The position numbers and the translations under genes are program-made. Under the pieces are notes generated by a model. That model was not told the DNA's origin, searched no databases, and saw only the letters and a list, made by a program, of their open reading frames with translations. A stretch of DNA of 41,787 nucleotides from Symploca sp. SIO1C2 (GTDB lineage Bacteria; Cyanobacteriota; Cyanobacteriia; Cyanobacteriales; Coleofasciculaceae), in NCBI GenBank assembly GCA_010672925.1, contig JAAHFP010000049.1, positions 1-41,787 on the forward strand. Direction: 5' to 3'. Within the stretch, counting starts at the first letter, position 1; each line of letters starts with the position of its first letter. Of the stretch, positions 21,598-23,950 are shown piece by piece.

Positions 21598-21630
21598 TTG
21601 AGGGGATTTACACAAAAGGTATATTGTGTA

Positions 21631-21776
21631 CCCGCGCAAGTTAGTAAAGCTTGGTCATATTAGTGCTCTATCCAGTTGAGCTACAGCTGCACTTAAAGCA
21701 GCTGGCGGGACTCGAACCCACAACCTCTCGCTTAGTAGGCGAAAATGTATGTAAGCTTTACAGGTAAGGGCGCGGG
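21631..21776 (-). tRNA. circularly permuted tRNA gene (tRNA-Arg-like backbone) within a closing stem
   Basis: On the minus strand the order is anticodon stem-loop, variable loop, T arm and 3' acceptor (21743 down to 21698), a 7-nt linker TTTAAGT (21697-21691), then 5' acceptor, U8-A9, D arm and base 26 (21690 down to 21664). Rejoined at 26/27 they give 73 nt: acceptor GCAGCTG/CAGCTGC (7/7 pairs), D stem GCTC/GAGC, anticodon stem TTCGC/GCGAG, T stem GTGGG/CCCGC with loop TTCGAGT, U8, A14, G18-G19, G53-C61 and an A15-U48 Levitt pair. The anticodon loop CTACTAA gives ACU; A20, C35 and U36 are arginine identity bases, and bacterial tRNA-Arg(UCU) differs mainly at position 34. Outside, CCCGCGC/GCGCGGG (7 bp) and GTAAAGCTT/AAGCTTTAC (9 bp) bring the ends together. 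CCA is not encoded. Transcribed behind the ORF at 21791-21991. Confidence 0.72.
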
Positions 21777-21790
21777 ATAAAAATATTTGT

Positions 21791-22003
<213 letters not shown>

Positions 22004-23053: not shown

Positions 23054-23950
23054 TTATACCGAATCCTCCTGCACAATTGCTAACTCTTCAGCACTGAGGA
23101 CTTTCCTTTCCATCTGGTAGAGGTCTTGCCATACTGGTTCTACTGCCGAGAACTTGAAATATTCCGTTAGTGAGCCAATTGGGTAGTTAAATGCTTGATA
23201 CCGGTGCTTAAAGTACAGTTCTACATTCCCCCGATGCTCCCAAGTGCCCAACACCTGAATCTCAATGTGTTGGTAGTGTTTTCGTAAGTCTCGCTCTACC
23301 TCTGCCACCCTTTCGGAGATTGAGCGTCGTGTTACACCAATTTTGTGCAATGTTTCGTGTTCAGTCTTTACCTGCAAAAAGTACAATTGAAGCTGTAGGA
23401 TGCGCCTCAATTGTGCCCGGTAGAGCCGGAAATCAGCCAGTCGTTCTTCTAAGGATGAAGAGTTGAGGATTTGAGCACGCTCTGCTGCTCCTTTGAGCTT
23501 CGTGAACTCCTCCAACAGCAAGGGTTCTTGCACCTGGTTAAATTGCGCTAGAGGCAGTGCTCCCACAGGAATTTTGCCTAGAGAGGTGAAATCATAACCA
23601 TCTTGTTGACTATTCATGACAAACAACTTTCGCAAAACCAAGCGAAAAGGTACGGTAGGAAGAGAATAGTCAGTGTTGCCATACTCTCGCCAAAGCTGCT
23701 TTAATTGCTGCAACTCTTTGCCCGATAGACGAATGTTGAAGTTGTCATACAAGGGCAGAGTGGGGAAGCTGCGATTAGCAACGGGATAGCAGGTTTCTTC
23801 AGTATGAGCAAAGTGATGAGCTTTGATTTTGCCCTTCTTAGCAGTCAAGAAACCCCCGCAGTAGATGCAGGTTAAATCGGTTTTACCACTTGGGACATCT
23901 TCAATCGTAACCAGGTTGTTATCGGCATTGACGCCAAACTTGAGCCACAT
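23054..23950 (-). CDS. CoiA-like zinc-ribbon / GIY-YIG (T5orf172/MUG113-like) nuclease-family protein
   Basis: 298 aa. N-terminus: a CIYCGGFL zinc-ribbon pair, then KAHHFAHTEET, as in competence protein CoiA and related predicted nucleases. A central helical region (about 75-180) is followed by YFLQVKTEHETLHKIGVTRR ... RVAEVERDL ... HRGNVELYFKHRYQAF. That is the T5orf172/MUG113 version of the GIY-YIG endonuclease fold (Y, K-I-G, R and E catalytic positions). Probably a DNA-processing enzyme; natural transformation or mobile-DNA roles are possible. Divergent from the C39 exporter, 135 bp apart. Confidence 0.75.
   Translation of the reverse strand: MWLKFGVNADNNLVTIEDVPSGKTDLTCIYCGGFLTAKKGKIKAHHFAHTEETCYPVANRSFPTLPLYDNFNIRLSGKELQQLKQLWREYGNTDYSLPTVPFRLVLRKLFVMNSQQDGYDFTSLGKIPVGALPLAQFNQVQEPLLLEEFTKLKGAAERAQILNSSSLEERLADFRLYRAQLRRILQLQLYFLQVKTEHETLHKIGVTRRSISERVAEVERDLRKHYQHIEIQVLGTWEHRGNVELYFKHRYQAFNYPIGSLTEYFKFSAVEPVWQDLYQMERKVLSAEELAIVQEDSV

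Follow-up and report, generated by a model that had tools for sequence, protein, structure and literature searches.

A Y-RNA-like element with a permuted tRNA mimic head in Symploca sp. SIO1C2 probably belongs to a repertoire of handle RNAs linked to a Ro60-like protein

Minus-strand positions 21631-21776 of a stretch of DNA from Symploca sp. SIO1C2 carry the arms of a tRNA in rearranged order, which raises the question of whether this is a tRNA gene in permuted form or an RNA of another kind. The stretch, referred to here as the window, is 41,787 nt long (GCA_010672925.1, contig JAAHFP010000049.1, positions 1-41,787; the genome is labelled G000). An earlier note, made from the sequence alone, had favoured a circularly permuted tRNA gene, with an unligated tRNA mimic as its fallback. 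It is the fallback that is supported, by a match to the bacterial Y RNA YrlA and by a family of RNAs sharing the outer stem or handle: the element is very probably a non-coding, Y-RNA-like RNA in which a permuted tRNA mimic head is carried on a handle likely bound by a Ro-like protein, a degree of confidence which applies to the identity of the element and not to its purpose.

The following features were assigned to the element:

21631..21776, minus strand: handle RNA unit, Y-RNA-like with permuted tRNA head (sequence, fold, Rfam, alignment)
21770..21776, minus strand: outer handle helix, 5' strand, CCCGCGC (sequence and fold; pair types compared across units)
21631..21637, minus strand: outer handle helix, 3' strand, GCGCGGG (sequence and fold; pair types compared across units)
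21753..21761, minus strand: inner handle helix, 5' strand, GTAAAGCTT (sequence, fold, alignment)
21644..21652, minus strand: inner handle helix, 3' strand, AAGCTTTAC (sequence, fold, alignment)
21727..21743, minus strand: anticodon-like hairpin, loop CTACTAA, triplet ACU at 21736-21734 (sequence, fold, ARAGORN on the rotated form)
21705..21721, minus strand: T arm, loop TTCGAGT (sequence, Rfam, fold)
21684..21704, minus strand: acceptor-like stem of 7 bp, CAGCTGC (21704-21698), loop TTTAAGT (21697-21691), GCAGCTG (21690-21684) (sequence, Rfam, fold, compensatory changes)
21665..21681, minus strand: D arm (sequence, Rfam, fold)

The minus strand thus reads anticodon hairpin, T arm, closed acceptor stem and D arm, all inside a two-part outer stem. 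In the minimum-energy fold of 150 nt (-55.5 kcal/mol, z = -4.61; 0 of 200 shuffles equally stable) the anticodon, T, acceptor and D hairpins were all present, together with both outer helices, which are long and interrupted by an internal loop. The permuted tRNA-like order described in the earlier note is therefore supported by both sequence and fold.

ARAGORN reported no tRNA in the window, nor did Rfam report anything there at its gathering (curated) thresholds. In a permissive Rfam search with 201 bases the best match was to YrlA (39.6 bits, E = 9.8e-8, model positions 24-84), and there was also a tRNA match (22.4 bits, E = 0.012); weak matches to IMPDH and the L25-leader were discarded. 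When rotated and joined at bases 26/27, the sequence was called by ARAGORN as tRNA-Ser(ACU), which, with the sequence and the fold, upholds the complete cloverleaf arms and perfect acceptor pairing claimed for the rotated form. A long variable arm is expected of bacterial tRNA-Ser, and the Ser(ACU) form does not have one. The closest relative of the window copy, in G001, likewise has the triplet ACU.

A blastn search with 171 bases gave relatives in 27 of the 97 genomes sampled from the order, and in several of them there was more than one match. The predicted pairing is kept among them: in an alignment of 22 sequences, 15 of 27 predicted pairs had changed on both sides in at least one sequence, and compensatory changes were present in the acceptor, T and handle stems. 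Permissive searches (E up to 0.01) of 17 loci of three kb gave 16 YrlA matches in 13 of them (30.9-40.1 bits, E = 1.8e-5 to 8.2e-3), while no YrlA match was found in this search at L013, L019, L021 or L215.

Further evidence on the nature of the element came from the outer stem. Its consensus has an outer helix that varies, the internal loop CCC-N2-A / ACTT and an inner helix ending AGC/GCT, followed by TACANAC. A unit finder built on these features predicted 425 units, of which 403 are distinct, at 103 of the 106 loci compared with 3 in a reversed control, and placed the window unit at 21627-21780; no unit was found at L079, L182 or L205. As the finder demands pairing and core letters, percentages of pairing are partly built in, while the variety of pair types is not. 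A stricter earlier version had given 360 units in 101 of 106 loci and 0 in the reversed control, and missed the heads that resemble the sarcin-ricin loop and GTPase-associated centre. Some loci derive from a genome that was sampled twice, and distinct heads (n = 394) are consequently a better count than units.

Heads were classed by comparison with 432 tRNAs (462 before tRNA-like units were removed) and E. coli 23S rRNA, against 132 shuffled heads. Among the 394, 168 were tRNA-like in normal order, 84 were permuted (clearly better matched by a doubled tRNA), 64 resembled 23S rRNA, 33 were short and 45 were unclassified. The window head falls in the permuted class, with a best doubled-tRNA score of 76 (to tRNA-Arg(CCU)) versus a single-tRNA score of 52. 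Because the cut-offs for this class (score of at least 50, gain of at least 12) coincide with or fall within the extremes reached by shuffled heads (50 and 18), the heads were also examined for structure: a closed hairpin comes directly after a T loop in 76 of 84 permuted heads, compared with 3 of 168 linear, 0 of 64 23S and 6 of the 45 unclassified heads and none of the 33 short ones. An anticodon-like hairpin with a 7-nt loop was recognised in 31 of the 85 structurally permuted heads, with 18 different triplets and a T at the place of U33 in 25 of the 31. Two or more of the main head kinds occur together at at least 74 of 103 loci, a lower bound given by a narrow test.

The same outer stem thus bears 23S pieces, short hairpins and normal-order tRNAs and, judged from these sequences, is a handle common to many heads and not a device that holds together two halves of one tRNA. 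The earlier note was correct that the flanks pair, as seen in the fold and in compensatory changes; the clamping role which it gave them does not hold, since the stem also bears non-tRNA heads.

The 64 heads resembling 23S rRNA are of two kinds. In the first, 32 heads align to about positions 1037-1114 of E. coli 23S rRNA, which is the GTPase-associated centre, and all 32 also contain the dodecamer AGTACGAGAGGA, located in E. coli 23S at 2654, in the sarcin-ricin loop; two sites far apart in 23S rRNA are thereby fused within one small RNA. The other 32 align to about positions 1909-1941, in the helix 69 region, and none of them (0/32) contains the dodecamer. Both kinds are slightly undercounted because two heads were left unclassified, one with an altered sarcin-ricin sequence (L070:356), so that the dodecamer is not invariant, and one in which the helix 69 motif was below threshold (L136:8206). 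The Rfam large subunit (LSU) rRNA model independently gave 52.7 bits for such a stretch just past the Ro-like gene of G018, and when whole units were aligned with their handles, compensatory changes were seen at 17 of the 49 pairs predicted for 32 sarcin-ricin units and at 18 of the 35 predicted for 30 helix 69 units. A circular permutation of 23S rRNA in the helix 69 heads was considered and is unsupported (10% of tails above the shuffled 95% level), and mimicry of 16S rRNA in unclassified or short heads is not claimed (best score 30 versus 26 for shuffled).

Neighbouring genes were compared at 21 loci, one of them a part of the window and the other 20 stretches retrieved separately. A protein of about 480 amino acids is encoded near the units in 16 of the 21, in one case partially. 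Its predicted structure (pLDDT 79.9, pTM 0.74) gave Ro60/TROVE proteins as all of its 12 best Foldseek matches in the PDB (E = 6.3e-10 to 1.7e-7, TMq 0.58-0.64, root-mean-square deviation 6.0-7.2 A), and one member matched two TROVE chains by phmmer (E = 5.6e-5). Residues D303, S305 and S307 of a MIDAS-type motif of the vWA domain were invariant in 14 sequences, and Pfam gave vWA matches only, below threshold, for the two members scanned. The protein therefore matches what would be expected of a distant relative of Ro60, with a predicted fold of a helical-repeat ring and a vWA domain, and is referred to as Ro-like.

The distribution of handle and Ro-like protein was assessed in the sample of 97 genomes. 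The handle motif was present in 36 (143 matches, compared with 2 for the reversed motif), and a Ro-like match at E up to 1e-3 in 42, of which 39 were counted after three weak matches (G034, G048, G058) were dropped. Both were present in 35 genomes, the motif only in 1, the Ro-like match only in 4 and neither in 57 (Fisher P = 9e-21, ignoring kinship among the genomes). A scan of named genomes, with Calothrix brevissima NIES-22 and Nostoc punctiforme NIES-2108 among the carriers, gave 182 Ro-like relatives, the best 80 of which were all cyanobacterial, and handle units were found at 78 of these 80 loci. Canonical TROVE was present in 22 of the 97 genomes, and canonical Ro60 was rejected as the main partner since TROVE and the motif occurred together in only 6 (P = 0.32). 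In Symploca sp. SIO1C2 the motif has three matches, the window copy and two on contig C101, the same contig that carries the Ro-like gene; contig C112 carries a canonical TROVE gene and an array of 26 tRNAs. The window copy is accordingly an outlying one and, if it works with the Ro-like protein, would do so in trans.

That bacterial Y RNAs mimic permuted tRNAs and have a stem to which Ro60 binds is already known, and the statement in the earlier note that permuted tRNA genes were not established in bacteria has to be revised to the extent that permuted tRNA-like RNAs are, in the excerpts of two papers, already established there as Y RNAs (PMC11472068, PMC8394870). The first excerpt describes the Y RNA structure 6CU1 as a circular permutation of tRNA (PMC11472068); the second, on YrlA and RYPER, has the stem bound by Ro60 and PNPase bound by the tRNA-like domain, and names YrlA as a substrate of DusA and TruB (PMC8394870). 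An excerpt of a third presents YrlA as a possible competitor of an anticodon nuclease (PMC7790460). None of the titles found dealt with cyanobacterial Y RNAs or Y RNAs that mimic rRNA, and an earlier description may be contained in Chen 2014, Sim and Wolin 2018 or Burroughs and Aravind 2016.

The window RNA resembles YrlA (Rfam RF02553), which acts with Rsr/Ro60, in its permuted T arm, closed acceptor stem and D arm and in the pairing of its 5' and 3' ends into a stem, and other handle loci are linked to a protein with a Ro60-like predicted fold. It differs in scoring less than the family cut-off requires, in a conserved loop of the handle's own and, for the window type, in having an anticodon-like hairpin in addition to the handle; normal-order tRNA and 23S heads are borne on the handle as well, and the Ro-like protein escapes the Pfam TROVE model. 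What appears to be new is, firstly, a single handle family with many heads, including mimics of a ribosomal factor-binding site and helix 69, and secondly the location of these RNAs near a Ro60 relative that Pfam misses.

The canonical cyanobacterial Ro60/TROVE loci (PF05731) likewise have tRNA-like RNAs beside a Ro-type gene, yet TROVE and the handle motif are not associated, and in the one sequence inspected, L043:104-688 (plus strand), normal-order tRNAs with complete acceptor stems have a different insert of about 50 nt close to the anticodon. The TROVE-side RNAs represent another Ro/Y-RNA arrangement, distinct from the first. Similar matches to tRNAs, 107-140 nt long, were seen in 14 of 20 TROVE loci.

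Several observations weigh against the proposed identity. The window's YrlA score lies below the Rfam cut-off of 69 bits, and none of the 16 matches in the 17 loci reaches it, the best being 40.1 bits. The two Ro-like members scanned did not match Pfam TROVE at E up to 1, and a 14-row profile of the protein compared with PDB sequences gave a weak match (E = 0.054). No class could be given to 45 of the 394 heads, and in 54 of the 85 structurally permuted heads no anticodon-like hairpin with a 7-nt loop could be recognised. The 39 Ro-like matches that were counted include two fragments, one in G006 and one, with a stop, in G007; a strong Ro-like match occurs without the exact motif in G006, G046, G069 and G092, and the motif occurs without a Ro-like match in G024. 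Finally, the window copy has the 66-amino-acid gene described below and the RNA, without an adjacent Ro-like gene.

The gene directly upstream of the RNA was identified by the comparison of neighbours:

21791..21991, minus strand: gene for a protein of 66 amino acids

It ends at 21791, 14 bases before the start of the outer stem, and is present in 18 of the 21 loci. For wider counts the 80 Ro-like stretches were searched by tblastn, and as some of these stop at contig ends the counts are lower bounds; the 66-amino-acid gene was present in at least 68 of the 80. The protein had no Pfam match at E up to 1, and for a possible ubiquitin-like identity the best fold match was not significant (E = 0.13).

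Matches were also found on viral and plasmid records. Of 50,697 phage records, one, of 595 kb, encodes a Ro-like protein (47% identical), and a protein scan of viral contigs gave 1 relative among 25 stretches. The RNA motif by itself led to two further viral contigs, L236 and L242, which were then seen to encode both the Ro-like and the 66-amino-acid proteins; they account for the only convincing units among 24 motif-bearing viral stretches, the other 22 being taken as chance. The 66-amino-acid gene, handle RNA units and Ro-like gene therefore occur together on three viral records, L210 (LR756511.1), L236 and L242. The Ro-like matches are at 48% in two of these (498 and 507 columns) and at 56% in the other (97 residues); the 66-amino-acid matches have E = 1e-12, 4e-12 and 2e-10. 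Their outer stems read TGTCCCC/ACTTGGACA, unlike the cyanobacterial ones, and their heads are tRNA-like in normal order in L236 and short in L210 and L242. At L218, which has a partial Ro-like gene, a unit was looked for and not found. Two cyanobacterial plasmid records also matched, and TROVE in jumbo phages is reported in the excerpt of PMC7824862.

Sequence comparison establishes the common handle, the head classes and their conservation; it also shows the RNAs to be linked to the genes for the Ro-like and 66-amino-acid proteins and to co-occur with them. The paired ends of the RNA form the handle, and by analogy with Y RNAs a divergent relative of Ro60, a ring protein which this genome encodes on another contig, would most likely bind it. 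The head would be a circularly permuted tRNA mimic and not a tRNA awaiting maturation, and the window RNA would belong to a repertoire in which one handle carries imitations of tRNAs, in two topologies, and of two 23S sites. Such heads may serve as baits for factors that act on tRNAs and ribosomes, or as sites at which these dock. The elements that they copy, tRNA arms together with the GTPase-associated centre, helix 69 and the sarcin-ricin loop of 23S rRNA, are targets of ribotoxins, antibiotics or translation factors. A purpose as bait or decoy, directed at agents that attack RNA when translation is under stress, is tentatively put forward as somewhat likelier than the tether discussed next. 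It is suggested, with equal reserve, that cyanobacteria and some large phages possess a modular RNA-mimic machine, in which a divergent Ro60 ring with interchangeable RNAs on one handle would, when translation is attacked, act as a decoy for toxins that cleave RNA, for antibiotics or for translation factors, or as a sensor of them, and which phages would carry in that conflict. Each head suggests its own partner, which makes the purpose of Ro ribonucleoproteins directly testable, and the presence of the module on viral records points to a possible part in the conflict between phage and host over translation.

An alternative purpose, considered somewhat less likely, is that of a tether as for YrlA, in which the handle would bind the Ro-like ring and PNPase or RNA-modifying enzymes would be brought to structured substrates by the heads, each head class having a different partner. 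The similarity of the window RNA and its relatives to YrlA is in keeping with this, as are the roles of YrlA with PNPase and as a DusA and TruB substrate given in the excerpt of PMC8394870, but the tether by itself leaves the copies of the sarcin-ricin loop, GTPase-associated centre and helix 69 unexplained.

A true circularly permuted tRNA gene is very improbable; its transcript would have to be cut and rejoined at 26/27, and RNase P and a 3' nuclease would then open it at the acceptor loop before it served in translation. The full tRNA-like arms with perfect acceptor pairing, the acceptance of the rotated sequence by ARAGORN and the U33-like T in most recognised loops are what such a gene would have, and, as in the permuted tRNA genes of algae and archaea, the 3' half comes first and a short linker leads from it to the 5' half. 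In those genes, a bulge-helix-bulge is found at the junction. Unlike them, the present family has its handle on non-tRNA heads too, lacks a consistent decoding identity and is linked to a Ro-like protein. Normal-order heads occur on the handle as well, 18 triplets among 31 recognised loops give no stable decoding identity, and the Ser(ACU) identity comes without the long variable arm. Maturation into a tRNA, as the earlier note had proposed, is therefore unsupported and, from the sequences compared, appears unlikely.

A decayed or chance tRNA-derived repeat without function, with which the separation of the window copy from the Ro-like gene and the insertions inside the head in some copies would agree, is the least credible explanation given the compensatory changes in the acceptor, T and handle stems and in 23S-type units, and the conservation and linkage across many genera and on viral records.

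Beyond the handle RNA and its preferred reading as a Ro-linked mimic, several handle loci lie near large tRNA arrays, which recalls the Anabaena trn operon and TrcR regulon, where a tRNA array and rtcB are derepressed by translation inhibitors; the excerpt of that paper mentions no Ro-like protein or mimic RNAs (PMC10272220). Eight or more tRNAs outside units were present in 12 of the 80 Ro-like stretches, and large arrays (17-32 ARAGORN calls per stretch, some of which are units) were seen at L066, L068, L073, L075 and L111, near handle loci or in their genomes.

Further genes were noted in the window and at the Ro-like loci. In the window, 23054-23950 (minus strand) gave a sub-threshold match to the CoiA N-terminal domain and a T5orf172 match barely above the cut-off. 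Proteins of 245 amino acids (L066:2967-3707, minus strand) and 145 amino acids (L075:7571-8008, minus strand), neither with a convincing family match, were encoded in at least 44 and at least 19 of the 80 Ro-like loci, respectively. An L7/L12-like protein was found in at least 32 of the 80, and at L066:2345-2731 (minus strand) an extra L7/L12-like protein (Pfam E = 2.9e-25) is encoded between the RNA units and the Ro-like gene.
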